Positions 6,374-44,780 of a stretch of 64,000 nucleotides of DNA are shown here, one piece after another. Location of the stretch: positions 496,001 to 560,000 of the forward strand of contig JARKND010000005.1 of assembly GCA_029309925.1 (NCBI GenBank), written 5' to 3'. Position 1 is the first letter of the stretch. The number at the start of each line of letters is the position of its first letter. Origin of the DNA: Fulvivirgaceae bacterium JP3-4 (GTDB lineage: Bacteria > Bacteroidota > Bacteroidia > Cytophagales > Cyclobacteriaceae). The translations under genes were made by a program, and so were the position numbers. A model generated the notes under the pieces. It did no database searches. It was not told the DNA's origin and was given only the letters and a program-made list of their open reading frames with translations.

Positions 6374-6950
6374 TTTTTGCGCAATAGCAACGGCAGTAAT
6401 TATCGTCACCGCGTGTGAGAAGAGTTATTTGCCGAAACCGATCGGCTACAACCGGCTCGAGCTTCCCGAAGCTGAATACGTAAGGCTTCCTGATTCACTT
6501 CCCTACTCATTCGAAGTGTCGAAGCACGCGAAAGTACTTGACGACACATCTGCCATCAACGAGCGCTACTGGATTGAAATTTATTATCCGCTTCTCAAGT
6601 CGAATGTACACATCACGTATAAGCGCGTGGCTAACCAAAAACTTCTCAAGGAATTTCTGGATGACGCATACACGCTCACAGCCAAACACCAGATCAAAGC
6701 TTACGGCATCAACGAGATCATTACAAAAACCGGCAAAGGCGAAACGGCAGTGATCGCTGAACTTGAAGGTGAAGTACCCAGTCAGTTTCAGTTCACCATC
6801 ACCGACTCGACAAAAAACTTTCTTCGTGGAGCACTTTACTTCAACACCAAAGTGCACAACGACTCACTCGCTCCCGCAATTGAGTATATGAAGAAGGACA
6901 TTATGCACATGATCAATACTTTCGAGTGGAATGCTCAGACTTCGAAGTAG
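6354..6950 (+). CDS. gldD: Gliding motility lipoprotein GldD
   Basis: 198 residues. The N terminus [21 protein letters not shown] is a lipoprotein signal ending in a Cys about 21 residues in. After it come the family phrases [16 protein letters not shown] and FEVSKHAKV. GldD is required for gliding and T9SS function in Flavobacterium johnsoniae. The ATG at 6354 gives a proper signal peptide; an upstream in-frame start would place 22 charged residues before it. The gene starts inside gldE (20-nt overlap). It ends with TAG, so TAG is an ordinary stop codon in this genome. Confidence 0.93.
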
Positions 6951-7008
6951 ATTGAAGTATTGTCATCGTTTTATCCACGTATCCACTAAGGCATTAGGCA
7001 CTGGACGT

Positions 7009-7117
7009 TAGTTGGGCGCACCCAACTAGAAAGCACCTGTTCGTGCCTATCCCGCGTTTTGGCGGGAAGCCATTGCCGCGTCAGCGGTCGAGAGCGAAGG
7101 ACCCTCATCAAGTTTGC
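7009..7117 (+). repeat. Multi-hairpin direct repeat, copy 1
   Basis: Positions 7023-7117 align without gaps to 11853-11947 (95 bp, six substitutions). Predicted stems: TAGTTGGG/CCCAACTA (7009-7028), GCAC/GTGC, TCCCGC/GCGGGA (7050-7067), GCCGC/GCGGT (7075-7088) and an overlapping alternative GGTC/GACC. In this copy a further TCATCAA/TTGATGA stem spans about 7105-7134. Five of the six substitutions fall in loops or linkers and one at the outer end of the last stem. The element occupies most of the 337-bp gene-free stretch between gldD and the large exported protein; nothing else was seen there. Confidence 0.8.
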
Positions 7118-7287
7118 AAAAACTGTGTTGATGACTGCGCAGATGTTTTCCGTTAAATTTTCTGTATTCCGAGAAGCTCATTTCATATTGTAGTGAAGTA
7201 TTCATGCCCTGTTATCAGCGTGAGATGCCAATTCTAGTGTAAAAGACTAACTGAGGTTTTAAGGAAGTTTGGTGAAATTCTAAACTT

Positions 7288-10200
7288 ATGCGACCTCTCA
7301 TCTACTTCTTGTCTTTTGTTTTTATTCTGGCGTTTTCGAAAGTCTCCTTCGCTCAATTCACTGGTGATTTTGATCATTCAAATTGGGAGCTTAACGACTC
7401 TCAGGGCGGAACGATCCAGCAAGACGAAGACCATTTGATCTTGACAGGTTCCGAAGATTTGAATGGGACGATCGAATATTCAATAACTCCCATTGAAGAC
7501 ATGCTGATCAGCTTCGACTGGCATTATCAAAGTACAGCGGCCCAGGCATATTCGGATATGGCTTACTACAAGTTAGATAATCAATATCACAATTTACCGT
7601 ACTATAATTATGACTTAGATCAAGCAGGCAAACGTGTGGTATATATCAAGGCAGGCAGCACATTTTCTTTTGTGCAGCAGTCAGATGGCTGCTGTGGTAA
7701 TGCAAGCCTGCATATATTGAATTTTTCGTTTGAATTTGCGAGCGATCCAGTAGGCGGGATCTCATGTGCGAGCGCATCTCCCGTCAACGCTGGAGAAAAG
7801 ATTCTATCTAACGCCCAAAATGGGAGGTGGCACTCTGTGACAATCCCGAATGTCCAAAATGCCAAACTAGTTATCAATGCCTCCGAATACGTTCAAGTCT
7901 ATGCTTACCAAGGCACTTGCAATAATTATTCATTTGTCTCAAGCGACTATGGGTATCGTCCTGTACTAACTGGACTTAGTGCGAATCAAACAGTGTTTCT
8001 GCTAATGTACACCTTTCAAGGTGCAGCTTTGCCATGGACTTTTCAGGTAGAAGAAGCTGGTGCTGGGGAGTCATGTGGGTCAGCTATACCTGCAACTCTT
8101 GGAACAAACGCAGCCGTAGTACCCGAAAATGCAAACTACCTTTGGTATTCGTATACAATGCCTGTGTCGCAGAAGGTGGTTATTTCTTCTGATGCCTCCG
8201 AATATATCGAGATACGGCAAGGTCAATGCGGATTGAGTTATGTCGAAGGTTCGTCTAGTGATATTGAAGTTACGGACGTTCCGGCAGGAAGCCAGTTTTA
8301 CATCCGATGGACAACCACCTATAACGGGACCGACTTTAATTGGCAGTTGGCCGAAGAAGATTTTGCCGATGGAGACCTGTGCAGCACTGCCATTCAAGCA
8401 GTAGAAGGTCTGAATGAATCGGAATCCGATGGCGGCTACACTTGGTTTAAGTTTACGATGCCGAATGAAGAAGGTAAAAAGTTGGTTATAACCTCAGATT
8501 CTCCGGCAAGTTTAAGAGTTACTGAAGGCACGTGTGATAATATAACAAATTATCACTATGGGTATCCTGATCTAACGCTAGCAGAGTTAGCTCCGAATCA
8601 AGAAGTGCTTATTCGCTGGGATATGTACAATGGGGGAACCCTTTCATGGAATATTGCCATAGAGGATATTACTGATGGCGATTTGTGTGCACAACCTCTG
8701 CCAGTGGTGATAGAAGGTGAGAATGTCATTCCGCCCAACAGCTATGGTGAGATGTGGTTTGACCTCGTAATGCCAGAAGATCCAAAAAAATTGGTGATCA
8801 CGTCTACTAACAGCTACTCGTATGCCTATGTTTATACCGGTTCATGTGAAAACCTTGGGTTTCGCAGCTCATTCGATGAAAGTGGTAAAATAAATACCCT
8901 GGCGCCTGGCGAACATGTTTTTATAAGATGGGCTTTATACAATGGAGGAGATTTCTCGTTCACAGTTACCTTTGAAGATTTAGGTCCGGCAGAAACATGC
9001 TCATCCGCGGTGACTGCGAGCGTTGGCGAAAATCACTTATCAACAAACACCGCTGGTTATTACTATTATGTTTTTACGATGCCGGAGGGCGCGAGTAAAA
9101 AACTAAGCATTTCAACAAATGAATCTAATTATATTCGACTGTATAAAGGGACATGTGATGCGCTGACGCCTGTGGGTCAGAATTACTACAACCTAACATC
9201 AGAAAACTTACTGCCAGGGGAAACGGTAATTATAGGGTGGATACTGGACTATGATTTGGACTTTAATTGGAATCTGGAACTCGAAGACATCCCACCCGGC
9301 CAGGCGTGCAGCGCAGCAATCGATGCAAGCATAGGATTAAACAACACAACGGCAGCACCTCGTTGGTTTGATTACACGATGCCAGGCACTGGAAACATTA
9401 CGATTTCATCTGTAGGGCTTACGAACACAAATACCTACTTACGTGTTTATGACGCCTGCGGTGGAGTGCAGCTAGCTCTAAATGACAACTTTCAAAATTT
9501 ACAGAGCAAGATTACACTTAACAACGTGACTTCGGGGACAACGCTAAAAATTTTGTGGGACAACACGTGGAGCAGCGCGGGTTTTGATTGGTCAATTTCC
9601 CTTCAAAACGTAAGCCAGTCAATCACGTTTGGTGAACTCAATTCACGTACAATCATTGATGGTCCGTTTGAATTGGAGGCGTCAGCAACCTCCGGCCTAC
9701 CTATCACTTTTGTAAGCGATAATGAAAACGTTGTGACAATTAACGGTAGCACAGTGACCGTGATAGGCGTGGGTGACGCTACCATTACCGCATCACAGCC
9801 TGGCAATGCAAGCTTCAATGCTGCGCAACCAGTGATGAGAACACTAACAATAACCAAAGCTTCTCAGACAATTTCCTTCAACGACTTGCCGCAAAAGACA
9901 ATTAACGATGCGGATTTTGATTTGACAGCATCAGCCTCATCATCTCTTCCGGTTGTGTTTGAAAGCTCCAATCCAAACGTTGCTACAATCAATGGTAATA
10001 CCGTTTCGATTGTCGGGGTCGGACAAACAACAATCACTGCATCCCAAGGAGGCAATGACATTTACAATGCGGCCTCGTCCATTCTAAGAACACTTACCGT
10101 TACCAAGGCGACCCAGACTATAACTTTTGCTCACCTCGCTGATAAAACGGTTGGTGATCCCGCCTTTGAAATTTCTGCGTCTGCATCTTCAGGTCTTCCT

Positions 10201-11322
10201 GTGACTTTTGTAAGTTCAAATTCATCTGTAGCTACGATCGCTGGAACTTCCGTTACCATAGTTGGAGCAGGCACAACGACTATCACCGCATCGCAGGCGG
10301 GAAATGATACATACGCTGCGGCCACACCGGTGGTTCGGACATTGAAGGTGACAGCCAATCAAACAATCACGTTCGATGCTCTGCCTGCAAAAACATTTGG
10401 AGATGCCGCGTTTCAACTTTCGGCATCGTCAACATCCGGCCTGCCTGTAACTTTTGAGGTATCAAATCCTGAGATCGCTGGAATCAGTGGCAACACACTC
10501 ACCATCCTGCACGCAGGCACGGTGAGTGTTACTGCAAAGCAGTCGGGCAATGAATTGTACAACGCAGCTGCGTCAGTGGTGAGAACACTTGTAATCAACA
10601 AAAAGTCTCAGCAAATCAGTTTTGCAAATCTCAGCAATAAGACATTCGGGGATGCTGCGTTCACAGTCAATGCATCGAGTTCTGAATCATTGCCCATAAC
10701 TTATGCAAGTTCGGATCCATCAATTGCCAGTGTGTCGGGCAATACGGTTTCGCTTGTTTCAGCTGGATCTGTGACAATCACAGCATCGCAGTCAGGCAAC
10801 GGAGACATTCAGGCTGCACAATCAGTCGCTAGAACATTCTGCGTAAACCCGGTGCAGCCGCAGATTACCGCTAACTTCAACGATGACGGAGCGCCAGTCC
10901 TCACCTCGTCAGCTGCGTCAGGAAATCAGTGGCATAAGGATGGTCAACAGGTGCAGGGATCGACAGCGAAGACCCATACTGTAAATTCCGCGGGCAGTTA
11001 TACAGTGGTTGCGAGTGCCGGCACATGCAATAGTTTGCCTTCTGCATCTTTCACGGTGGTGATCACAGATATTACTCCAACCGATAACAAAACTCGTATC
11101 TATCCTAATCCAGCGTCAGATCATTTAACAGTTGAAGGCGTGACCAACACTACAGAGATGGAATTTGTCTCGATGCAGGGGGTTGTTACAAAAGCAAATG
11201 TAAGTCCCCGCAGTTCATCTGGTCGCATTTATGTTGATATCGCTGGCCTTTCTTCAGGTGTTTATTTTCTCATCTTGAAAGAAAAAGGATCGGTAAGCAG
11301 ATTGAAGTTCATTAAACAATAA
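7288..11322 (+). CDS. Large T9SS-exported repeat protein (adhesin-like)
   Basis: 1344 residues. A Sec signal peptide (about residues 1-22, ending SFAQ) is followed by a short N-terminal domain. Then come six repeats of roughly 100 residues (about 158-775), each opening with a Cys after an acidic or Gly turn (ESCGSAI, DLCSTAI, ETCSSAV, QACSAAI) and carrying a second Cys in a GTC-like loop and a closing FNW/LSW strand. Next are five Ig-like repeats of about 82 residues (about 776-1188; QTITFxxLxxKTxxD...GLPVTF...SGN). An Ig-like module and a C-terminal sorting domain (IYPNPASDHLTVEG ... SGVYFLILKEK) end the protein. It is probably displayed on the cell surface or released. The locus is bracketed by a direct repeat. 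Confidence 0.88.
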   Translation: MRPLIYFLSFVFILAFSKVSFAQFTGDFDHSNWELNDSQGGTIQQDEDHLILTGSEDLNGTIEYSITPIEDMLISFDWHYQSTAAQAYSDMAYYKLDNQYHNLPYYNYDLDQAGKRVVYIKAGSTFSFVQQSDGCCGNASLHILNFSFEFASDPVGGISCASASPVNAGEKILSNAQNGRWHSVTIPNVQNAKLVINASEYVQVYAYQGTCNNYSFVSSDYGYRPVLTGLSANQTVFLLMYTFQGAALPWTFQVEEAGAGESCGSAIPATLGTNAAVVPENANYLWYSYTMPVSQKVVISSDASEYIEIRQGQCGLSYVEGSSSDIEVTDVPAGSQFYIRWTTTYNGTDFNWQLAEEDFADGDLCSTAIQAVEGLNESESDGGYTWFKFTMPNEEGKKLVITSDSPASLRVTEGTCDNITNYHYGYPDLTLAELAPNQEVLIRWDMYNGGTLSWNIAIEDITDGDLCAQPLPVVIEGENVIPPNSYGEMWFDLVMPEDPKKLVITSTNSYSYAYVYTGSCENLGFRSSFDESGKINTLAPGEHVFIRWALYNGGDFSFTVTFEDLGPAETCSSAVTASVGENHLSTNTAGYYYYVFTMPEGASKKLSISTNESNYIRLYKGTCDALTPVGQNYYNLTSENLLPGETVIIGWILDYDLDFNWNLELEDIPPGQACSAAIDASIGLNNTTAAPRWFDYTMPGTGNITISSVGLTNTNTYLRVYDACGGVQLALNDNFQNLQSKITLNNVTSGTTLKILWDNTWSSAGFDWSISLQNVSQSITFGELNSRTIIDGPFELEASATSGLPITFVSDNENVVTINGSTVTVIGVGDATITASQPGNASFNAAQPVMRTLTITKASQTISFNDLPQKTINDADFDLTASASSSLPVVFESSNPNVATINGNTVSIVGVGQTTITASQGGNDIYNAASSILRTLTVTKATQTITFAHLADKTVGDPAFEISASASSGLPVTFVSSNSSVATIAGTSVTIVGAGTTTITASQAGNDTYAAATPVVRTLKVTANQTITFDALPAKTFGDAAFQLSASSTSGLPVTFEVSNPEIAGISGNTLTILHAGTVSVTAKQSGNELYNAAASVVRTLVINKKSQQISFANLSNKTFGDAAFTVNASSSESLPITYASSDPSIASVSGNTVSLVSAGSVTITASQSGNGDIQAAQSVARTFCVNPVQPQITANFNDDGAPVLTSSAASGNQWHKDGQQVQGSTAKTHTVNSAGSYTVVASAGTCNSLPSASFTVVITDITPTDNKTRIYPNPASDHLTVEGVTNTTEMEFVSMQGVVTKANVSPRSSSGRIYVDIAGLSSGVYFLILKEKGSVSRLKFIKQ

Positions 11323-11334
11323 ATCTAAGCGCAT

Positions 11335-11763
11335 ATGAAATCACTATGTAAGACAATATTTGCATGCCTTGCAATTTGCCTGGCCACGCTACAAATAGCT
11401 TGTGACAAAGAAGGACCAACAGCTCAGGAAACTCAGTTAAAAAAACTCGAGAGTAAACTGTGGAGCGTTAATAGCGTTATCGTTGATGGCGCGGATCGGA
11501 CATCTCTGTTCCAGGGAATGACGCTGCGATTTTCGGGCAAAACTTTCTCGGCAACATCTGGAGGTCACGTGTGGCCCGCATCAGGGTCTTGGGAATTTAC
11601 AGACGCGGCTGCGACCACCATCCTTAGAAATGACAATGTTACTGTCACCATTGAACAGATTTCTGAATCTCAGTTGGAGCTGTCACTTTTCTGGAGCGAA
11701 ACAACATTTGGTCCTGGCAGGACAAAGTCGATAAGCGGAACGCACGTGTTCAATTTGAGATAA
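11335..11763 (+). CDS. Lipoprotein of unknown function
   Basis: 142 residues with a lipoprotein signal (ACLAICLATLQIAC, Cys23), so membrane-anchored outside the cytoplasm. The remainder looks all-beta: an LESKLWSVNSVIVDG opening, then alternating strands with LRFSGKTFSATSGG and GSWEFTD. That pattern resembles small lipocalin-like lipoproteins of Bacteroidota, but no catalytic motif is visible. It starts 12 nt after the large exported protein and is probably its operon partner; both lie inside the repeat-bracketed interval. Confidence 0.75.
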   Translation: MKSLCKTIFACLAICLATLQIACDKEGPTAQETQLKKLESKLWSVNSVIVDGADRTSLFQGMTLRFSGKTFSATSGGHVWPASGSWEFTDAAATTILRNDNVTVTIEQISESQLELSLFWSETTFGPGRTKSISGTHVFNLR

Positions 11764-11835
11764 GTCATGCAAGCCGCTGTAAAGGGAGATCATTTTTTGG
11801 TTCCCTAATCAACGGTTCACGAAACGATTACCCAG

Positions 11836-11947
11836 TAGTTGGACACCAACATCAACTAGAAAGCACCTGTTCGTGCCTGTCCCGCGTTTTGGCGGGAAGC
11901 CATGGCCGCGGCAGCGGTCATGAGCGAAGGACCCCCATCAAGTTTGC
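11836..11947 (+). repeat. Multi-hairpin direct repeat, copy 2
   Basis: Second copy of the element at 7009-7117, exactly 4830 bp downstream and in the same orientation. The leading hairpin (TAGTTG at 11836, CAACTA at 11853-11858) has changed sequence between the arms but keeps the pairing. It lies in the 450-bp gene-free stretch 11764-12213. The rest of that stretch holds only a small TTCCGC/GCGGAA hairpin near 12077-12095 and nothing else I can support. Confidence 0.8.
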
Positions 11948-12213
11948 GCAGACCAACAGATGCTGACATTTTACGACCCACCACATTTTCAACAGTTTGT
12001 CTTCGAAGTCACCGATATTTTAGATCACTTGTCAGCTTCTCAATTGGTCTGAATTAAGCTAGGGTCTTTCGCTTCTTCCGCTTTCGCGGAATCGCTCAAG
12101 AACCGGTGTGTTTTTTGCTGTTGTTTGCCTTCTTTCACTCCAGCGTCTCTTTTTCTGCGAAACAATTTTTTCGCTCGACATTTCCTCGTAAATCGAAGCA
12201 GAATTCCCGTGAT

Positions 12214-13365
12214 ATGCTGAAGTGCAAACAATCAAAATTCTCGCTTCCTCCTAACGTTAGTTATCTCAATGGTTCGTACATGGCGCCCATGCTGAAGAGC
12301 GTTGAGAAGGTTGGAATCAAGGGACTTCGACTCAAAAAAAATCCTGCTGACATTCCACCGGAAGCTTTCTTTACCGAAAGTGAAATATTGAGACAAGAGT
12401 TTGCAACGCTCATCAATGCAGCGGAACCCTCATCGATCGCTATCATTCCCTCGGTTTCGTACGGCATGGCGATCGTTGCCAAAAATGTGCAGATCAAGAG
12501 TGGCGAACACATCGTTGTTGCATCGGAACAGTTCCCAAGCAACTATTACGTGTGGGCAAAACTCGCTGAAGAAAACCATGCTGAAGTGAAAGCAATTGCT
12601 CCACCTGATACGTTGGTCGAGCGTGGCAAGATCTGGAATGAAAGAATACTCGAGGCAATCAACAATCAAACAAAAATCGTAGCGCTCGGCAATGTGCACT
12701 GGGCTGACGGAACACGTTTCGACCTTAACGCAATTCGCAGGAGAACGAAAGAGGTTGGAGCACTGCTGATCATTGACGGAACGCAATCGGTCGGTGCGCT
12801 GCCCTTCGATGTGCAGGAGATCAATCCTGATGCGCTGATCTGCGCTGGGTATAAATGGTTGTTAGGGCCTTACGGCATTGGTGTGGCTTATTTCGGTGAA
12901 GCATTTGCAAATGGAAAACCACTTGAAGAGAACTGGATCAATCGCCTGAATAGCGAGGATTTCTCCGGCCTTGTTAAGTACGAACCCCAATATCAGCCAG
13001 GGGCTTTGCGATATGACGTAGGCGAACACAGCAACTTCATCAATGTGCCGATGCTGATCCGCTCTATTCGCCAGCTTAACAAATGGAAAGTCTCCAACAT
13101 TCAGGAATACTGCTATCACCTCACAAAGCAACCCATCGCAACACTACGCGAAAAAGGCTTCTGGATTGAAGATGAATCGTGGCGTGGCTCGCATCTTTTC
13201 GGCATTCGACTTCCGAAAACAATTGATACTGAAAAAGTCAAAACAGCATTGCTGAAGAACCGGATCTACGTGTCTTATCGAGGCAGCGCTATTCGTGTTT
13301 CACCGAATGTTTACAATGACCAGGCTGACCTGAACAAGCTTGTCAAAGTATTGAAGAAGTTGTGA
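12214..13365 (+). CDS. Aminotransferase class V-fold PLP-dependent enzyme
   Basis: About 383 residues of the fold-type I, class V family (cysteine desulfurase / selenocysteine lyase-like). The PLP-binding landmarks are DGTQSVGALPFDV (Asp that holds the pyridine nitrogen) and CAGYKWLLGPYG, whose Lys forms the internal aldimine; SVSYGMAIVA contacts the phosphate. There is no obvious cysteine-loop motif of NifS/IscS, so the substrate is unknown. The ATG at 12214 is chosen because the family begins near SLPPNVSYLNGSYMAP; an upstream ATG at 12106 would add 36 unlikely residues. Its stop overlaps the next gene by one nucleotide (TGATG). Confidence 0.85.
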   Translation: MLKCKQSKFSLPPNVSYLNGSYMAPMLKSVEKVGIKGLRLKKNPADIPPEAFFTESEILRQEFATLINAAEPSSIAIIPSVSYGMAIVAKNVQIKSGEHIVVASEQFPSNYYVWAKLAEENHAEVKAIAPPDTLVERGKIWNERILEAINNQTKIVALGNVHWADGTRFDLNAIRRRTKEVGALLIIDGTQSVGALPFDVQEINPDALICAGYKWLLGPYGIGVAYFGEAFANGKPLEENWINRLNSEDFSGLVKYEPQYQPGALRYDVGEHSNFINVPMLIRSIRQLNKWKVSNIQEYCYHLTKQPIATLREKGFWIEDESWRGSHLFGIRLPKTIDTEKVKTALLKNRIYVSYRGSAIRVSPNVYNDQADLNKLVKVLKKL

Positions 13366-29782: not shown

Positions 29783-31993
29783 ATGATTCGTTTTCTTTTT
29801 GTTTTTGCACTGGCGCTCAATTTTGCCTTTGCACAGGAGAAAAACTGGCAGGGCAAATTCGAGCAGCTCGATCAAACCCTACCGACTCCAAATGAATACC
29901 GGACTGGCTCGGGTGCTCCCGGTCCAAGATACTGGCAGCAGCAGGCCGACTACGTGATCGCAGTTGAATTGAATGACGACAACCAGAGCATCATGGGTAC
30001 AGAAACCATTACCTATCACAACAATTCGCCTGATGTGCTGGGTTATCTGTGGCTGCAACTCGACCAGAACATCCTCGCAGACGAAAATACGCTTGCATCA
30101 ACCAGCACGGGTGCGCTTGTTGACTCGGCAGCAGCCAAAACATACGCCACACGTGTGTCAGACTTCGATGCCGGATTTAAAATCAAAGGCGTAAAGGAAA
30201 CGAGCGGCAAACCATTGCAATACATCATCAACAACACGATGATGCGTGTTGATCTTCCTCAGCCGTTGAAGTCCGGTGACAAGGTTTCATTCAACATCGA
30301 CTGGTCTTTTAACATTGTTGACCGCAGTATCTTCGGTCAGCGCAGTGGAATGGAATATTTCCCGGCCGACAAGAATTACATTTATACGATCGCTCAGTTC
30401 TTCCCAAGAATGTGCGTGTATGACGACTACGAAGGCTGGCAGAACAAGCAGTTTCTCGGACGAGGTGAGTTCACACTTCCTTTCGGAGATTATAAAGTGA
30501 AGATCACCGTGCCTTCAGATCACGTCATCGCTGCAACCGGTGTGCTGCAAAATCCGCAGGATGTGCTGACGAAGACTGAGATGGAGAGATTTCAAAAAGC
30601 AAAAACAACTTTCGACAAGCCTGTGATCATTGTAACGCAGGCAGAAGCTACCGCGAAAGAAAAAACAAAATCTAAGCAGAAGAAGACCTGGGAATTTCAC
30701 GCTCAGAACGTCCGCGACTTCGCCTTTGCAAGCTCACGAAAATTTATCTGGGATGCACAGGCCGTGAAGATCGGAGCCAACACCCCGCTTGCGATGTCCT
30801 ACTATCCGAAAGAAGGTAATCCACTGTGGGAGGCTGAGTCGACCAGGGCCGTGAAGAATACGCTCGAAGTTTACTCGCGCATGACCATCGATTATCCTTA
30901 TCCTGTTGCGATCTCCGTTCACACCGCGAGCATTGGCATGGAATATCCGATGATCTGTTTCAACTATGGCCGTCCAAGACCTGACGGAACAATTCCCCCG
31001 CAAACAAGAAAAGGTATGATCGGTGTGATCATCCATGAGGTGGGACACAACTTCTTTCCGATGATCATCAACAACGATGAGCGCCAGACTACGTGGATGG
31101 ATGAGGGTATCAACAGTTTTGTTGAAGTTCTCACCGAGCGCGAGCGTTATCCTGATATTGACTGGAGCAGCGACACACCGAAAGGACTTGTGAACTACAT
31201 GAAAGGTGACACACGTACGAAACGTCCGCTGATGGTAAATCCTGAGCAGGTGATCCAGCTCGGACCCGAGCAGTATGCAAAGGCAGCGATGGCGCTTGAC
31301 ATCCTGCGTGAAACAGTAATGGGCAAGGAATTATTTGATAAGGCGTTTAAGGAATACGCACAACGCTGGGCGTTCAAACATCCGAAGCCGGCAGACTTTT
31401 TCCGTACGCTTGAAGATGCCTCTGCCGTTGACCTTGACTGGTTCTGGAGAGGATGGTTCTATACAACCGATAATGTTGATCAGAGTATCGATGAAGTGAA
31501 ATGGTTCAAACTACGTGACGAAAAATCAAACATCGAAAACAAAAATGTAAAGGCTCAGAGAGGCGACCTCGCGTCAAATGGCAGCAACAAAGCGAACCCT
31601 TTCAATGGTGCACCACAGGAATTTACGCTGATGAATACGGATCCGCAGCTGTATGGTGAATTCAGAAGCCGCATAGACGACAAGGCCGTGATGCAGAAAC
31701 TACAAGGCAAGAATATCTACGAAGTTACGTTGTCAAACAAAGGTGGATTGGTAATGCCTGTAATCATCGAGTGGAATTACAAAGATGGTACGAAGGAGAT
31801 CGAACGCATTCCCGCGGAGATCTGGAGAATTAACGAGACGAAGTTCAGCAAGGTATTTGTGAAAGAAAAAGAAGTAGCCAGCGTTGTGCTTGATCCTAGA
31901 TTCGAAACCACCGATATCAACACCGATGACAACGTGTTTCCGAAAATGGAAAAGGATTCCAGATTTGATGAGTTCAAAAAGAAAGCCGATTAA
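29783..31993 (+). CDS. M1 family metallopeptidase, paralogue 1 of 3
   Basis: 736 residues. The signal peptide (about 1-17) marks an exported enzyme. An N-terminal beta domain opens with WQGKFEQLDQTLPTPNEYRTG and ADYVIAVELND. The zinc site is His418-Glu419-x2-His422 (HEVGHNFFPMI) with the third ligand Glu441 in WMDEGINSF, the M1 spacing. The usual GAMEN exopeptidase loop is replaced by GMEYPMI. A beta-rich C-terminal domain ends with an acidic/Lys tail. It probably trims peptides in the periplasm or outside the cell. Two close paralogues follow in tandem, and HupE precedes it. Confidence 0.93.
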   Translation: MIRFLFVFALALNFAFAQEKNWQGKFEQLDQTLPTPNEYRTGSGAPGPRYWQQQADYVIAVELNDDNQSIMGTETITYHNNSPDVLGYLWLQLDQNILADENTLASTSTGALVDSAAAKTYATRVSDFDAGFKIKGVKETSGKPLQYIINNTMMRVDLPQPLKSGDKVSFNIDWSFNIVDRSIFGQRSGMEYFPADKNYIYTIAQFFPRMCVYDDYEGWQNKQFLGRGEFTLPFGDYKVKITVPSDHVIAATGVLQNPQDVLTKTEMERFQKAKTTFDKPVIIVTQAEATAKEKTKSKQKKTWEFHAQNVRDFAFASSRKFIWDAQAVKIGANTPLAMSYYPKEGNPLWEAESTRAVKNTLEVYSRMTIDYPYPVAISVHTASIGMEYPMICFNYGRPRPDGTIPPQTRKGMIGVIIHEVGHNFFPMIINNDERQTTWMDEGINSFVEVLTERERYPDIDWSSDTPKGLVNYMKGDTRTKRPLMVNPEQVIQLGPEQYAKAAMALDILRETVMGKELFDKAFKEYAQRWAFKHPKPADFFRTLEDASAVDLDWFWRGWFYTTDNVDQSIDEVKWFKLRDEKSNIENKNVKAQRGDLASNGSNKANPFNGAPQEFTLMNTDPQLYGEFRSRIDDKAVMQKLQGKNIYEVTLSNKGGLVMPVIIEWNYKDGTKEIERIPAEIWRINETKFSKVFVKEKEVASVVLDPRFETTDINTDDNVFPKMEKDSRFDEFKKKAD

Positions 31994-32036
31994 ATACGTA
32001 AAAGTGGGTATCGGAATAGTTTAAAATAATTTTTGG

Positions 32037-32068
32037 AGTGCCGTATTTTTACGGCACTTTTGTTTTTG
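32037..32068 (+). terminator. Intrinsic terminator after M1 paralogue 1
   Basis: An 8-bp stem AGTGCCGT/ACGGCACT (32037-32044, 32051-32058) with a 6-nt loop is followed by TTTTGTTTTT. It lies in the 94-bp gap between the first and second M1 genes, so these may be separate transcripts. Confidence 0.85.
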
Positions 32069-32087
32069 GGAATTTTAATATAAACCT

Positions 32088-34334
32088 ATGAAGATCGTAA
32101 AACGAATTGTTGCGATTGCGCTTTTGGCATTATTGACGTGGAGCGCTTTTGCACAGCAACAGCAGCAGGCGTGGAAAGGAAAGTTTGAACAGTTGGATCA
32201 GACACTTCCGACACCTAACAGCTATCGCACCGGTTCAGGTGCCCCGGGTCCGGCATACTGGCAACAACGGGCCGACTATGTGATCAACGTTGAAGTTGAT
32301 GACAACACGCAACTGCTCACCGGCTCTGAAACCATCACCTACTATAATAACTCACCGGAGACATTGCGTTACCTCTGGCTGCAACTTGATCAGAACATTT
32401 TTGGGCCGGATAATCTTACGGACCAAACCAACACAGGCGCTATACGCGATTCATTACCCACAGCATACCTGGGTTATGTTGCAGGCATCACTGTTTCCGA
32501 TTACAAAGGTGGCTATACCATTAAGTCGGTGAAAGATGCTTCAGGGAAACAGCTCCCAACCACGATCAATAAAACTATGATGCGAGTCGATCTTCCGACA
32601 CCGATGAAGACGGGAGATAAATTTGTGTTTTCCATTGACTGGAGCTACACTGAATACAATCGCCAGAACTTTAGCGGTCGTGGCGGCTACGAATATTTTC
32701 CGGAGGATGGCAACTACCTCTACACGTTCGCGCAGTGGTTCCCCCGCATGTGTGTGTTTGATGACTACGAAGGCTGGCAGAACAAGCAGTTCTTCGGTCT
32801 CGGTGAGTTTGCGCTGACATTTGGAAATTATCGCGTAAGAATTACCGTGCCGTCTGACCATATCGTTGGTGCTACCGGTACAATTCAGAATATGAACGAA
32901 GTGCTTACAAAAACTCAGATCGAGCGCTACGAAAGGGCAAAGCAATCATTTGACAAACCAGTTGTCATAGTTACGGAAGAAGAAGCGCGTCAGAAAGAAA
33001 AAACAAAATCAACGAAGAAGAGCACGTGGGAATTCTACGCAGAGAATGTTCGCGACTTTGCCTTTGCACACTCGCGCAAGTTCATCTGGGACGCGCAGGC
33101 TGTTAAACTGAATGACAAAACGCCACTCGCAATGTCACTCTATCCGAAAGAAGGAAATCCACTCTGGGGCAAGGAGTCGACCAAAGCCGTGAAGAATGCC
33201 CTTGAGGTTTATTCAAAGCGTACAATCGATTATCCTTATCCTGTAGCCTACTCCGTTCATACAGCGAATCAGGGCATGGAATATCCGATGATCTGCTTCA
33301 ATGGCGGACGCCCGAACAAAGACGGCACCTACTCTCAGCAAACCCTTATCGGGATGATCCACGTAATCATTCACGAAGTAGGACACAACTTCTTCCCGAT
33401 GATCATCAATTCTGACGAGCGTCAGTGGACCTGGATGGATGAAGGATTGAATTCCTTCCTTGATAAAGAAACATTGCAGGAGCGTTACCCTGAATTGAAC
33501 TACATGAGAGGAACACCGAAGACGATCGTGAACTACATGAAAGGTGACAAGAGCCAGATGCGTCCGATGATGACAAGCTCAGATAACATTCGCACGATCG
33601 AGTTTGGTAACAACGGCTACTCAAAACCTTCGGCTGCCCTCACGCTGTTGCGCGAGACAGTAATGGGTCCTGAGCTGTTCGACAAAGCCTTCAAGGAGTA
33701 CGCACAGCGCTGGGCATTCAAGCATCCCGGGCCGGCAGATTTCTTTCGCACAATGGAAGATGCGTCCGCTGTTGACCTTGATTGGTTCTGGAGAGGTTGG
33801 TTCTACACAACCGATCATGTTGATGTCGAATTGGCCGAGGTGAAATGGTTCAAGCTGAAAAATCAGAAGTCGGATCCGGAAAAGAAAAATGTGAAGACCA
33901 GTGGAGGAGACCTCGCTGGAAAATCTCAGAACGCTGCATCGGACTTCAGCAACGGACCTCAGGAATTTACACTCACAGACACACCTGAGCAGCTTTATGG
34001 TGAGTTCAAGAGCCGTATCGATGATAACGCAGTGCGTCAGAAACTCAACGGAAAGAATATCTACCAGCTCAAATTCAAAAATGCCGGTGGACTTGTCTCT
34101 CCGATCGTGATCGAATGGACCTTTAAAGACGGCTCGAAAGAGATTGAACGTATTCCGGCCGAGGTCTGGAGGATCAATGAAAGTGAGATCACAAAAGTGT
34201 TTGTGAAAGACAAGGAAGTTGTTAACATTGTTGTCGATCCGAATTCGGAACTGGCGGATGTGAACGCTGCCAACAATGCGTTTCCCAAGCGCCCGGTGGA
34301 TTCGAAATTTGATCAGTTCAAAAAGAACAATTAG
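32088..34334 (+). CDS. M1 family metallopeptidase, paralogue 2 of 3
   Basis: 748 residues, closely similar to its two neighbours along the whole length. It has a signal peptide (about 1-22), WKGKFEQLDQTLPTPNSYRTG, zinc ligands His429, His433 (HEVGHNFFPMI) and Glu452 (MDEGLNSFL), and GMEYPMI in place of GAMEN. The RWAFKHPGPADFFRTMEDAS helix is shared with paralogue 1. The lysine-rich insert after VRDFAFAHSRKFIWD-type segments and the C-terminal beta domain are conserved. It ends in TAG. Terminators on both sides suggest a single-gene transcript. Confidence 0.93.
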   Translation: MKIVKRIVAIALLALLTWSAFAQQQQQAWKGKFEQLDQTLPTPNSYRTGSGAPGPAYWQQRADYVINVEVDDNTQLLTGSETITYYNNSPETLRYLWLQLDQNIFGPDNLTDQTNTGAIRDSLPTAYLGYVAGITVSDYKGGYTIKSVKDASGKQLPTTINKTMMRVDLPTPMKTGDKFVFSIDWSYTEYNRQNFSGRGGYEYFPEDGNYLYTFAQWFPRMCVFDDYEGWQNKQFFGLGEFALTFGNYRVRITVPSDHIVGATGTIQNMNEVLTKTQIERYERAKQSFDKPVVIVTEEEARQKEKTKSTKKSTWEFYAENVRDFAFAHSRKFIWDAQAVKLNDKTPLAMSLYPKEGNPLWGKESTKAVKNALEVYSKRTIDYPYPVAYSVHTANQGMEYPMICFNGGRPNKDGTYSQQTLIGMIHVIIHEVGHNFFPMIINSDERQWTWMDEGLNSFLDKETLQERYPELNYMRGTPKTIVNYMKGDKSQMRPMMTSSDNIRTIEFGNNGYSKPSAALTLLRETVMGPELFDKAFKEYAQRWAFKHPGPADFFRTMEDASAVDLDWFWRGWFYTTDHVDVELAEVKWFKLKNQKSDPEKKNVKTSGGDLAGKSQNAASDFSNGPQEFTLTDTPEQLYGEFKSRIDDNAVRQKLNGKNIYQLKFKNAGGLVSPIVIEWTFKDGSKEIERIPAEVWRINESEITKVFVKDKEVVNIVVDPNSELADVNAANNAFPKRPVDSKFDQFKKNN

Positions 34335-34358
34335 TTTACCATACAGGTTAAAATTCAG

Positions 34359-34391
34359 GCCACTCCTCACAGAGTGGCTTTTTTATTTTTA
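34359..34391 (+). terminator. Intrinsic terminator after M1 paralogue 2
   Basis: A 7-bp stem GCCACTC/GAGTGGC (34359-34365, 34372-34378) with a 6-nt loop is followed by a long T-run. Confidence 0.88.
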
Positions 34392-34433
34392 TTATTCCCC
34401 AACAGTTGATATTTTTTGTGTCCCGAAACCCCT

Positions 34434-35216
34434 ATGATCGAATGTAAGAATTGCGGGACTGCTTTCGAAGGAAAGTTTTGTCCCAACTGCTCGCAGAAAG
34501 CCGCGACCCACCGCTTTACGCTTGCTCACTTTGCGCACGAAACCACACATGCCGTCACCCACACTGACAAGGGCGTCCTGCTATTAATTAAAGAAATGTT
34601 CGTGCGCCCGGGAGTGGTAGCCCGTGAATACGTGGAAGGAAAGCGAAAAAAGTATTTTAACCCAATCACTTTTCTGCTCATCCTGATGGCAGTCCAGGTA
34701 TTCGCGGTGAAGAAGACTGACATTTACGGCAACTTTACGCGACAGATGCAGAAGGCCTACGAGGCCATGGCCAAAGCAAATCCTGATTCTGTGAAAGGCA
34801 CACAGGATTTTAATCAGCAATTGAAAAAGGCGGATAAGCAGGCTTCGATCGCCACTGATAACAACAAGCTTCTCACGGTAATTTTTATTCCGCTCTTGTC
34901 TGCACTGACCTGGCTGTTTTTTAAAAAATCGGGATTTAACTACGCTGAGAACCTTGTGTTCAACGTGCTGATCAATGCTCAGCTGATCGTGTGGTTTCTA
35001 CTCATCTGTATCATCCCGGTGCTGATCAAAGTCAAACTCGTGGTCCTCGTCATGTACATTTACATTATTGCATCGTGGGTATATTCGCTCATTGCTTACA
35101 AACAATTTTACCGTCAGAAATGGGGATGGATAATCCTTAAAGGACTCACAGTTCAGCTGATCTACTTTGTAATCCTGACGTATGCGTCAAGCGCGATGGT
35201 CACTTATCTTGAATAA
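34434..35216 (+). CDS. DUF3667 zinc-ribbon membrane protein
   Basis: 260 residues. The N-terminal zinc ribbon C-x2-C-x8-C-x2-C (CKNCGTAFEGKFCPNC) and a cytoplasmic helical part with THTDKGVLLLIKEMFVRPG and YFNPITFLLILMAVQVF identify DUF3667. Four or five membrane helices follow from about residue 85 to the end. Function unknown. The ATG at 34434 puts the ribbon at the very N terminus; an upstream TTG adds six residues. It is inserted between the second and third M1 paralogues and starts a likely two-gene unit with the third (11-nt gap). Confidence 0.85.
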   Translation: MIECKNCGTAFEGKFCPNCSQKAATHRFTLAHFAHETTHAVTHTDKGVLLLIKEMFVRPGVVAREYVEGKRKKYFNPITFLLILMAVQVFAVKKTDIYGNFTRQMQKAYEAMAKANPDSVKGTQDFNQQLKKADKQASIATDNNKLLTVIFIPLLSALTWLFFKKSGFNYAENLVFNVLINAQLIVWFLLICIIPVLIKVKLVVLVMYIYIIASWVYSLIAYKQFYRQKWGWIILKGLTVQLIYFVILTYASSAMVTYLE

Positions 35217-35227
35217 CCATACAACCT

Positions 35228-37444
35228 ATGAAAAAAATAATTCTATATCTTCTACTCTTTCCGGCAATGGCGTTTGCGCAGGAGCAAGCCGGATGGAAAG
35301 GTAAGTTTGAGCAGCTCGATCAGATGCTGCCAACTCCTAATGAATATCGCACCGGCTCCGGAACACCAGGATCGAAATACTGGCAGCAGCGTGCTGACTA
35401 TACGATTGATGCGGAGATAGACGAAACAACGAACGTTTTGAAAGGGAAAGAGACAATTGTTTATCACAACAACTCTCCCGAGAACCTGAAGTACCTCTGG
35501 TTACAGCTCGATCAGAACATTAATAAAAAGGAAAGCGAAGATTTCGGAAGTTTCTTCGGTCCGGTGCGCGACTCGTTGTCAACGCTGCACATGCAATACC
35601 TCACGAGGCCGATCGAATTTCCTGCAGGCTATACCATTGCGTCAGTGAAAGATGGTGGAGGAAAAGATCTTCCGATCACCATCAACCAGACCATGATGCG
35701 CATCGACCTTCCAACTCCGCTGAAGGCCGGTGAAAAGTATACGCTCAACATCACGTGGTCTTACCCGATCACGGATCGTTCTAACTTTCTGCTTTCGCGC
35801 GAGGGTTATGAATATTTTCCCGAAGACAAGAACACGGTTTACCTGATCGCACACTGGTTTCCACGCATGTGTGTGTTTGATGATTACGAAGGCTGGCAGA
35901 ACAAACAGTTTCAGCGCCTGGGCGAGTTTGCACTTGAGTTTGGTGACTACAAAGTAAACATTACGGTGCCGGCCGATCACATTGTCTCCTCAACGGGATT
36001 ATTACAGAATGCAAAAGATGTGCTTACAGCCAAAGAGCTGGAGCGTTATGAGAAAGGAAAAACATCATTCGAAAAGCCATTGTTTGTCGTGACTCCGGAG
36101 GAAGCGAAGGCGAAAGAAAAAATCAAATCAACTGCGAAGAAGACATGGACTTTTCACGCGGAAAACGTTCGTGATTTTGCTTTTGCCAGCTCGCGAAAAT
36201 TTATCTGGGACATGCAGGCTGTAAAGCTTCCTACGAACACTGTGCTGGCGATGTCATTTTATCCAAAGGAAGGATTGCCCGTATGGCAGGAAGAGTCAAC
36301 ACTTGCCGTGAAGAACGCGCTCGAAGTTTATTCTAAATACACATTTGATTACCCTTATCCAACCGCCAACTCTGTGAATACATCAAACATCGGCATGGAA
36401 TTTCCGATGATCAGCTTCAATGGGGGTCGTCCCGATAAAGACGGGAAGATGAGTGATGCAGCAAAAGCAGGGATGATACAGGTAATCGTTCATGAGGTAG
36501 GACACAACTGGTTCCCCATGATCGTGAGCTCTGACGAAAGGCAATGGATGTGGATGGATGAAGGTTTGAATACGTTCCTGCATACGCGTACGGAGATGGA
36601 GCGTTATCCCAAATCAAATCCCACAAGACCGAAAAGCATTGTGCCTTACATGAAGGGCGACAAGAATGTAATGCGTCCTGTGATGGTCACGTCTGACAAC
36701 GAGCGCCTCACCGCTTTTGGCAACAACTACTACGAAAAGCCAACAGTGGCGCTGACGATTCTTCGCGAAACAGTGATGGGCAAAGAGTTGTTTGACAAAG
36801 CATTCAGTGAATATGCCAATTCGTGGAAATTCAAACACCCCAAGCCAGCCGATCTTTTCAGATTGCTTGAAGAAGCATCCGGTACCGACCTCGACTGGTT
36901 CTGGCGCGGATGGTTCTACTCAACCGATAATGTTGATATGTCAGTTGAGGAGGTAAAATGGTTTAAGTTGAAAGGTCAGCAGAGCGATCCTGAGAAGAAG
37001 AACAAGACTGTGAAGTCGGGTGACCTGTCGGCATCGGCAAAGTCGACTACAGATTTTTCATCAGGTCCTCAGGAGTTCACGCTCATTAACACACCTGAGG
37101 ATCTCTATGGTGAATTCAAGAGTCGTGTTGACGACAATGCAATCCGGCAAAAGCTGCAGGGTAAAAATATTTACCAGGTGAAATTCAAAAATCGCGGTGG
37201 GCTTGTGATGCCGTTGATTATCGAATGGACGTACAAAGACGGCACAAAGGAGCTTGAAAAAATTCCCGCTGAAGTATGGAGAATCAATGAGGAAGAATTT
37301 ACTAAGGTTTTTGTAAAGGATAAGGAAGTCGTGAACATGGTTCTCGATCCGCAGAACGATCTTGCCGATGTTGACGAAGAGAATAACGTCTTTCCAAAAA
37401 AGTCAGGAGAATCCCAGTTTGATTCTTTCAAGAAGAAAAACTAA
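35228..37444 (+). CDS. M1 family metallopeptidase, paralogue 3 of 3
   Basis: 738 residues. Signal peptide (about 1-17) and the same architecture as the two upstream paralogues: WKGKFEQLDQMLPTPNEYRTG, zinc ligands His422, His426 (HEVGHNWFPMI) and Glu445 (MDEGLNTFL), GMEFPMI at the GAMEN position and a KKKN tail. It differs most in the segment after the HExxH helix (HTRTEMERYPKSNPTRP), which in M1 enzymes lines the specificity pocket, so substrate preference may have diverged. It follows DUF3667 by 11 nt. A hairpin (37475-37514) lies downstream. Confidence 0.93.
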   Translation: MKKIILYLLLFPAMAFAQEQAGWKGKFEQLDQMLPTPNEYRTGSGTPGSKYWQQRADYTIDAEIDETTNVLKGKETIVYHNNSPENLKYLWLQLDQNINKKESEDFGSFFGPVRDSLSTLHMQYLTRPIEFPAGYTIASVKDGGGKDLPITINQTMMRIDLPTPLKAGEKYTLNITWSYPITDRSNFLLSREGYEYFPEDKNTVYLIAHWFPRMCVFDDYEGWQNKQFQRLGEFALEFGDYKVNITVPADHIVSSTGLLQNAKDVLTAKELERYEKGKTSFEKPLFVVTPEEAKAKEKIKSTAKKTWTFHAENVRDFAFASSRKFIWDMQAVKLPTNTVLAMSFYPKEGLPVWQEESTLAVKNALEVYSKYTFDYPYPTANSVNTSNIGMEFPMISFNGGRPDKDGKMSDAAKAGMIQVIVHEVGHNWFPMIVSSDERQWMWMDEGLNTFLHTRTEMERYPKSNPTRPKSIVPYMKGDKNVMRPVMVTSDNERLTAFGNNYYEKPTVALTILRETVMGKELFDKAFSEYANSWKFKHPKPADLFRLLEEASGTDLDWFWRGWFYSTDNVDMSVEEVKWFKLKGQQSDPEKKNKTVKSGDLSASAKSTTDFSSGPQEFTLINTPEDLYGEFKSRVDDNAIRQKLQGKNIYQVKFKNRGGLVMPLIIEWTYKDGTKELEKIPAEVWRINEEEFTKVFVKDKEVVNMVLDPQNDLADVDEENNVFPKKSGESQFDSFKKKN

Positions 37445-43848: not shown

Positions 43849-43970
43849 ATCCCGGTGACCATTTATCAAGTTGTGTAATGATTGATTAAATAGGGTCTAT
43901 GATGAACTAAGCAGCACTGGTTCAAAACATACGACCCCTTCAGGGTCGGAATCCATTTCCAATTTTTTCT

Positions 43971-44356
43971 CTATAAACATTTGACCTCTTCGAGGTCAAG
44001 AAGGACACTTTCGTGGAAGTGAGAAACTTCGATGGAGTTGAACTATCCTCGCTGTGTTTAGAAAAATTTTAAGCTGATACGAATACCAATGGATGTGCTC
44101 CTTTGGGAGCGTTTACCTCCGCTCGCGTGATCCTGTGTAAGAAGTAATGTACAATATCCGATCCCGAAGGGATCACATGTTTATAGTAAACGCCCTGAAA
44201 CTCGACACGCGACCCCGAAGGGGTCGAATGCTTCGGCCGAATACCCGTAAGAACATTGCAGTCTATCTGATAGCGAAAGGATCGAACGATCAAAGACGAT
44301 TTTTATCTATAGACATGCGGTCCGTTTGAAATCACTTCTGTGTGCGGAATTCATCT
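43971..44356. repeat. MITE/REP-like tandem unit, copy 1
   Basis: It opens with CTATAAACATTTGACCTCTT (43971 onward, a 27-bp hairpin-bearing end), and 44160-44186 carries the same 27-bp element in inverse orientation (GATCCCGAAGGGATCACATG and onward), making a 216-bp MITE-like unit. A further hairpin GACCCCGAAGGGGTC lies at 44211-44225, and a degenerate CTATAGACATGCGGTCC end near 44309. An extra hairpin (CGACCCCTTCAGGGTCG, 43932-43948) lies just outside. No reading frame is convincing. Confidence 0.8.
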
Positions 44357-44403: not shown

Positions 44404-44780
44404 CTATATAAACCTTTGACCCCTTTGAGGTCAGAAAGACGTTTTGTGGAAGTGAGAAACTTCGATGGAGTTGAATTTCCTCGCTGTGTTTGGAAAATTT
44501 CGAGCCGATACGAATATCATAGATGCGGGCTCCTTTGAGAGCGCTTACATCCGCTCGCGTGATCCTCTGCAAGACGTAATGTACAATATCCGATCCCGAA
44601 GGGATCACATGTTTATAGTAAACGTTATACAACCGCCACGCGACCCCGAAGGGGTCGAATGTTTCGGGCGAATTCTTCCGTAAGAGGCGATGGCGCTGAT
44701 CACGAAAGGATTGCATTATCGAAGACGACTTTCATCTACAAACATGCGATCCATTCAAATCACTTCCGTGTTAGGAATTA
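44404..44780. repeat. MITE/REP-like tandem unit, copy 2
   Basis: Second copy of the 43971-44356 unit, offset by 431-433 bp. A 49-bp block (44144-44192 and 44576-44624) and a 30-bp block (44013-44042 and 44446-44475) are identical; the rest is diverged. Its far end reaches the stop codon of the dienelactone hydrolase gene at 44778. Together the copies fill the 929-bp gene-free stretch 43849-44777. Confidence 0.8.

Follow-up and report, generated by a model that had tools for sequence, protein, structure and literature searches.

The stretch of DNA analysed here, called the window below, comprises 64,000 nucleotides of the 5.8-Mb genome of Fulvivirgaceae bacterium JP3-4 (genome G000; contig JARKND010000005.1, C5:496001-560000). 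There are two copies of a short repeat in this window, and they bracket two genes, the larger of which encodes a protein with a type IX secretion C-terminal sorting domain (Table 1). The original prediction treated the repeat as a feature of two copies that is either mobile or a structured RNA, and with which the bracketed genes could have moved or been duplicated. Our analysis indicates that the repeat is probably a unit of an interspersed element resembling the repetitive extragenic palindromic (REP) sequences, in which a hairpin with a conserved foot is found alone or in feet-outward inverted dimers and would be served by an enzyme acting in trans.

The two copies and their family

The two copies, at 7023-7117 (copy 1) and 11853-11947 (copy 2), form an ungapped alignment of 95 bp; they have the same orientation, are offset by 4830 bp and are 94% identical by direct comparison. 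These particulars, and the positions of the six substitutions reported between them (7049, 7074, 7081, 7090, 7091 and 7105), were reproduced exactly. At this offset the likeness drops to background within about 10 bp of either edge, and thus the repeat does not mark the border of some longer ungapped duplication. With copy 1 as the query, a search of the same genome recovers copy 1 itself, copy 2 (E 1.6e-35) and three weaker places, and copy 2 recovers seven places including itself at E <= 0.01.

A feature of two copies it is not, as searching this genome yields at least 38 representatives of the repeated unit, which are called halves below. A covariance model (R1) made from 22 halves (alignment A1) gave at least 37 matches (E <= 0.1) in this genome from the 131 candidates that were scored out of 1211. 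Over 26 sources and at E <= 0.5, there are 45 rows, which consist of 38 halves from this genome, six rows from a genome of another genus (G060) and one duplicate, in which a counted site is read on its opposite strand. The common core is GCACCnGTTCYTGAGC, followed by a variable hairpin and then by AGCGAARGACCC, and this arrangement often recurs, inverted, at a distance of slightly more than 100 bp. Searching the genome for the pattern GAGCRAAGGAYCC gives 8 matches, as against none for its reversed control.

Inverted dimers, 12 in number, are formed by 24 of the 38 halves, and the remaining 14 lack a scored partner. The GCACC ends (the feet) face outwards in every scored dimer. Nine dimers measure 250-274 bp, of which the spacer takes up 109-133 bp, and the remaining three measure 307, 348 and 468 bp, the longest of which contains an inserted stretch. 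The spacer word GTCTTCGAAGTCACCG is present at 7 places in the genome with at most one mismatch, all of them in or beside elements of the family, and the backwards pattern is present at none. An optional second hairpin is inserted in 5 of the 22 halves of A1.

There are three strong R1 matches in the window (Table 1), which identify copy 1 as a lone left (L) half and copy 2 as the L half of a full dimer. The original prediction had ended the second element at 11947 and had missed the inverted right (R) half that lies beyond the spacer. A fourth match, at 43903-43946 (E 0.21), is at chance level.

The median identity among the halves of this genome is 61%. Halves located no more than 5 kb apart account for only 28 of 703 pairs yet for 5 of the 10 most alike pairs, and this over-representation of near neighbours points to local copying. 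The window pair ranks tenth, with 84% identity in the model-fitted alignment as against the higher figure of the direct comparison. Some lone halves belong to sub-types that have their own conserved downstream flank, such as ATAACGCACGC at C5:1406 and C5:1432 kb and CAGCAATGGAACGC at C1:2211 and C1:2214 kb. There is also a nested stretch, running from GCAATGCC to GCTATTGC, in three elements (C5:473 kb, C5:1674 kb and C1:592 kb), and it resembles another interspersed repeat of this genome.

Table 1. Repeat units, hairpins and bracketed genes in the window (positions are those of the window).
Feature	Position	Strand	Basis or remark
Lone left (L) half, copy 1	7022..7113	+	R1 match, 55.4 bits
L half of full dimer, copy 2	11852..11943	+	R1 match, 55.7 bits
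Right (R) half, inverted, of copy 2 dimer	12053..12120	-	R1 match, 60.3 bits, the window's best
Spacer of copy 2 dimer, 109 bp	11944..12052	.	Contains GTCTTCGAAGTCACCG at 11999-12014
Optional second hairpin, TCCCGC-GTTTTG-GCGGGA	7050..7067 (copy 2: 11880-11897)	+	Folding
Tip hairpin, copy 1, 8-bp arms, 6/8 paired	7072..7091	+	Counted from sequence
Tip hairpin, copy 2, 8-bp arms, 8/8 paired	11902..11921	+	Folding, tip script
Tip hairpin of R half, TTCCGC-GAAA-GCGGAA	12076..12091	-	R1 alignment
TAGTTG..CAACTA stem upstream of half	7009..7028 (copy 2: 11836-11858)	+	Outside family consensus
Bracketed gene, 1344 aa, type IX secretion C-terminal sorting domain	7288..11322	+	Pfam PF18962, PF23759
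Bracketed gene, 142 aa	11335..11763	+	No Pfam match, E <= 0.001

Pairing within the unit

Selection on structure had been proposed from the two window copies, and these copies do not bear it out. Five of the six changes had been assigned to loops or linkers and one to the outer end of a stem, but 7074, 7090 and 7091 all lie inside the tip stem, two of these three break a pair of that stem in copy 1, and the two copies alone contain no compensatory change. The inner stem GCCGC/GCGGT is only part of an 8-bp tip stem (7072-7079/7084-7091, and 11902-11909/11914-11921 in copy 2). In copy 1, the automated tip extraction chose another register, which is likewise 6/8 paired. The leading TAGTTG/CAACTA stem is present at both window copies but is absent from the other left flanks viewed.

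The 45-row family supports the proposal far better. Single halves fold modestly better than their shuffles, with z scores of -2.04 and -2.17 when the plus strand is folded and -1.90 and -0.97 for the minus strand. The pairing and covariation of the 45 aligned rows (alignment A2, 11 pairs) were compared with 500 shuffles, by statistics that ignore the relatedness of the rows: 93.9% of cells are paired versus 76.8% (sd 1.1) after shuffling, double-change cells number 89 versus 26.4, the covariation score is 0.412 versus 0.140, and no shuffle reaches any of these three values. Nine pairs exhibit two-sided change versus 6.2 in the shuffles, a count that 2 of the 500 reach. When the partner columns are shifted by 1-3, the paired cells fall to 50.6% or less. 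Two-sided change is also found in 8 of 11 pairs when RNAalifold is applied to the 22 rows of A1, which were aligned without structure. In the lower stem, TYCT/AGRA, 96.1% of cells are paired and two of the four pairs have changed on both sides; a separate tip stem follows.

Tip arms were extracted from 36 of the 38 halves, of which 33 carry the extra tip hairpin and three have none and were excluded from the averages. Arms are 91% paired with their own partners and 45% paired with swapped partners, where the picking of the best hairpin in each half inflates pairing and a few misplaced arms (such as R_C5_507, R_C4_22 and most solo halves) lower the own-partner figure. As a control for this picking, the best hairpin in 24 hand-chosen tips has 7.46 of 8 pairs, versus 6.15 after the letters are shuffled. 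Arms of 8 bp with at least 7 paired are found in 23 of the 36 halves, and a solo sub-type has shorter tips.

It is the half, and not the dimer, that is under constraint. Among the 12 dimers, true partners score 0.822 for the compatibility of the outer L and R arms and swapped partners 0.802, a value as high as the true one arising in 452 of 5000 permutations; the corresponding values for the inner arms are 0.896 and 0.904 (4286 of 5000). The foot pair that varies most is, in four dimers, C-G in one half and T-A in the other, both of them paired locally; in another six, the two halves share one pair or combine C-G with T-G. The two remaining dimers have one half unpaired there, namely the R half at C5:473 kb (C-A) and the L half of the window dimer (G-G). 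Thus, the L and R halves of one element are not matched to each other, which is the behaviour of REP units and not of the ends of a miniature inverted-repeat transposable element (MITE).

Two other readings of the family have to be weighed against this evidence. Templated (quasi-palindrome) repair of palindromes is a known process and can mimic compensatory change, and so the strong covariation of the family could arise in inert, decaying repeats whose stems are kept paired by templated mutation and whose hairpin is recognised by nothing. Many tips are indeed near-perfect despite having widely differing sequences. However, the foot outside the tip is conserved as well, also in G060, and templated repair does not explain this; we regard inert repeats as unlikely. 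Still less probable is a MITE of about 250 bp, the halves of which would be terminal inverted repeats, recognised in double-stranded form by a transposase that a full-length insertion sequence encodes. Bacterial MITEs are likewise non-coding elements of about this length with inverted halves, the lengths of nine of the 12 dimers fit, and the L and R ends tend to differ (AATAGAAAGC versus AAAAAAGTAGC). Against this, an L half matches the R half of its own element no better than R halves from other elements, and the hairpin tips of the halves differ, with an arm identity of 0.42 within and 0.38 between elements (nine elements, some arms misplaced). In addition, lone halves are common, there is no consistent target-site duplication at the ends of the 12 dimers, whose placement is not exact, and no insertion sequence with these ends was found among the open reading frames (ORFs) listed for two stretches with spaced halves. 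In one of these stretches, C1:2214789/2216307, the halves are about 1.5 kb apart and of different sub-types, and they enclose a 381-aa ORF that does not look transposase-like by eye (no family search was made). In the other, C5:907-911 kb, the enclosed ORFs look ordinary by eye. Neither was retained as an autonomous insertion sequence. A literature search for MITE work naming Cytophagales found none.

Distribution and relationship to known REPs

There are no R1 matches at E <= 0.1 in the two other genomes of the same genus (G001 and G002, referred to as the sister species), for which 131 of 883 and 131 of 1955 candidates were scored, and there are only weak matches (E 0.06-0.1), in two genomes, among 38 relatives. 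A scan of 295 genomes of the family, this one included, gave matches at E <= 0.001 only in this genome and in G060, under stricter filters by which some weak matches are lost. The repeat has no blastn match in a plasmid collection. A DNA match in the relative G025 (E 0.0097) is weak and was taken as chance, and a pattern scan of contigs, which may omit this species itself, returned a single record, from Conexibacter, that was judged a chance match.

The sister species lack the element at two syntenic places, one of which is the gldD-aminotransferase junction discussed below. The other is C5:1001 kb, where a dimer lies between two genes that are also adjacent in both sisters. The intergenic distance is about 337 bp here versus about 170 and 190 bp in G001 and G002, depending on the start codons taken. 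This is a case of presence versus absence and not a clean empty site, because the sister DNA is too diverged for the exact ends to be visible. A similar comparison for C4:342 kb found the right neighbour in one of five genomes, and the left neighbour was not beside it. With many dispersed copies, inverted dimers and two places where the sisters lack the element, the class named in the original prediction, a mobile REP/MITE-type element, was right.

The G060 rows link this long form to a short form. They are mostly AGCACCTGTCATCCTGAGC-hairpin-GCGAAGGACCCC, two inverted pairs are found among them, and TGTCATCCTGAGC is intact in all six. Each also carries a TGTC tag, of which TG or less is left in the 38 halves of this genome, and among the aligned long-form rows the leading AT of the stem is found in G060 only. 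The short form, TYCTGAGCN{1,30}GCGAAGRAYC, is present in 118 of 395 genomes of the phylum, whereas the backwards pattern is present in two (single matches in G542 and G558). In 13 of the 30 loci that this search gave there are 18 short-form units; GTCA directly precedes 15 of them, and an inverted partner follows several. A search of the literature for the short motif as an exact string gave nothing on it, the sole match being unrelated. The abundance of the short-form hairpin is uneven across genomes, with 61 to 214 exact matches in G508, G469, G543, G579 and G382.

These features recall the CGTC-tagged REPs, which are widespread and include Bacteroidetes among their hosts. They have an unpaired CGTC (or TGTC/CCTC) tag at one end, which is often TGTC, and a stem of 8-9 bp that is opened by paired A and T and closed by a loop of 4-5 nt; head-to-head dimers with the tags outward predominate, and no transposase was associated with them, the mobilising enzyme being not known as of 2013 (Di Nocera et al. 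2013, PMC3733652). The short form fits this CGTC/TGTC-tagged superfamily, a link that we draw from the text description and not from a comparison of consensus sequences. The elements described here share with it the hairpin repeats, the feet-outward dimers, the mostly intergenic location, the tens of copies, the Bacteroidetes hosts and, for Y1 genes, the lack of a transposase gene beside the copies, and in G060 and most of the short relatives viewed a TGTC foot is followed by AT. In contrast, there is an optional second hairpin here, the dimer spacer is long and partly conserved, and the downstream tail is not CCA. Because the intact tag and the 4-5-nt loop are not found in this genome, we file the long-hairpin form as a new variant and not as a plain member. 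The most likely ancestor of its units is the shorter CGTC/TGTC-tagged REP type found widely across the phylum.

The GTAG REPs and REPINs, which are mobilised by the REP-associated tyrosine transposase (RAYT, or TnpA-REP), similarly have imperfect hairpins, inverted dimers and species-restricted families, but there is no conserved GTAG foot here. A RAYT was also considered as the mobiliser and rejected, as R1 finds nothing (E <= 0.5) within 1.5 kb of any of the five Y1_Tnp genes in this genome, the search for transposases being confined to the Y1 class. This absence is in line with the statement on CGTC repeats in PMC3733652. For the Bacteroidetes TnpA-REP subclass 2.6, PMC6006769 describes 'atypical secondary structures' that flank the transposase gene. 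Compared by description only, this subclass shares the Bacteroidetes host, an unusual secondary structure and copies elsewhere in the genome, whereas none of the structures described here flanks such a gene. A different perfect hairpin, ACCCCCGGCTTAAGCCGGGGGT, is located just upstream of one of the Y1 transposase genes and also, in two places, near C1:592 kb, and it may be that gene's own REP.

Several observations weigh against a REP-like element that is served in trans. The low median identity indicates that most copies are old, a mobilising enzyme did not emerge, and target-site duplications could not be resolved in the 12 dimers. In 5 of the 45 rows of A2, including both window L halves with their G opposite G, the most variable foot pair does not form. 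A2 was also fitted to R1, which was built from 22 of the same 45 rows, and one row is the opposite strand of a counted site. Moreover, the tag is degenerate here (TG-TTCCTGAGC), with TGTC found only in G060 among the aligned rows, and an extra tip hairpin (33 of 36 halves) stands in place of the 4-5-nt loop described for CGTC REPs. In this reading, which we nevertheless favour, each unit is a hairpin whose foot (GCACCnGTTCYTGAGC ... AGCGAARGACCC) is conserved and whose tip stem changes fast, in some units with the extra hairpin alongside. The hairpin would be recognised in single-stranded form and copied by an enzyme that is encoded elsewhere and acts in trans, and copies would be tolerated between genes, mainly at gene 3' ends, where some might acquire a secondary use as terminator.

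A bolder version would be that a CGTC-type REP lineage has grown in one species into a composite of about 250 bp, with two long-tipped hairpins and a conserved spacer, that is spread by its own single-strand enzyme and whose unit pairs can carry enclosed genes. We give this little credence, although if true it would provide a first handle on the mobilisation of CGTC REPs. The narrow distribution of the expanded form, the related form in a second genus and the sisters without a match together make a small system for tracing the origin and insertion of CGTC REPs.

Bracketed genes and terminator-like features

The gene upstream of the 1344-aa gene is gldD (by Pfam). Eight gldD stretches were compared in relatives, and only in G001 and G002 was the aminotransferase gene found nearby. 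In both, gldD, the aminotransferase gene and the next downstream genes, which we take to be of the EamA, YCII and 2H types, are in conserved order, and between gldD and the aminotransferase gene there is another ORF, of 213 aa in G001 and 293 aa in G002. The two bracketed genes have no match in these gldD-aminotransferase stretches, and R1 finds nothing at either junction, with one chance-level match elsewhere in L137 (E 0.076). A check had been proposed of whether sister strains lack the 7.1-11.9 kb interval with one copy remaining; both sister species lack the genes at this junction and have no repeat there. The gene content of the junction (window 6950-12106) differs among all three species of the genus that were compared, which makes it a variable spot, and the repeats flank the part of it that is particular to this species.

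This arrangement could suggest a composite unit, in which the two copies moved or duplicated the bracketed genes or in which a segmental duplication produced the copies. Such a history is circumstantially favoured by the absence of both genes from the junction in both sisters, by the N-terminal 771 aa of the 1344-aa protein, for which a search of 11 relatives gave no match at E <= 1e-8, and by the close likeness of the two copies (94% identity versus the 61% median among the halves). However, the similarity is confined to the repeat, the N-terminal 771 aa match only themselves in this genome, the G+C content of the interval is ordinary (0.451 versus 0.466 for the window), and the sister junctions hold other genes and no repeat. 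We consider such a history, in either form, very improbable. The bracketed genes are not part of the element, and the repeat seems to have no link with the secreted-protein gene next to it. Most likely the bracket is incidental, a deflating result at the level of the window. The lone unit and the dimer probably flank genes that are absent from the sisters because such copies survive in intergenic space at a variable junction.

The other suggestion, a structured RNA, would chiefly amount to a bidirectional terminator or an mRNA-stabilising 3' end, where the rod formed by a dimer is closed by GCACC/GGTGC and followed by a T run. Two dimers were folded and are far more stable than their shuffles (z -9.06 at C4:342 kb and -5.43 for the window dimer), but any inverted dimer folds well, and pairing between the halves does not covary. 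A run of at least five A on the R strand (T on the other) is found at the R end of 9 and at the L end of 6 of the 12 dimers. Seven dimers lie between convergent genes, four between tandem genes and one between divergent genes, and some are 4-30 bp from stop codons. These contexts are based on ORF calls, with two tandem dimers sharing one intergenic region and the divergent label set by hand over the script, since the neighbour's start lies past the dimer. A terminator-like site is called at 7123-7142, just beyond copy 1. The same scan calls none in the window dimer, and its total of 2 sites for 6900-12300 compares with a shuffle mean of 5.0. The family lacks a match in either sister species, and no Rfam match was found up to E 5 for window 6500-12500. 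A dedicated structured RNA is therefore not needed, and as the primary identity of the repeat we think it improbable. Use as a terminator, acquired after insertion, is possible and is compatible with the REP-like reading.

There are two further repeats of other kinds in the window. A different 96-nt repeat is present at 44097-44192 and 44529-44624, where the copies are 94% identical and 432 bp apart. At 29846-37437 there are three similar tandem stretches, located about 2.3 and 3.1 kb apart, and their aligned pieces are mostly 63-76% identical.

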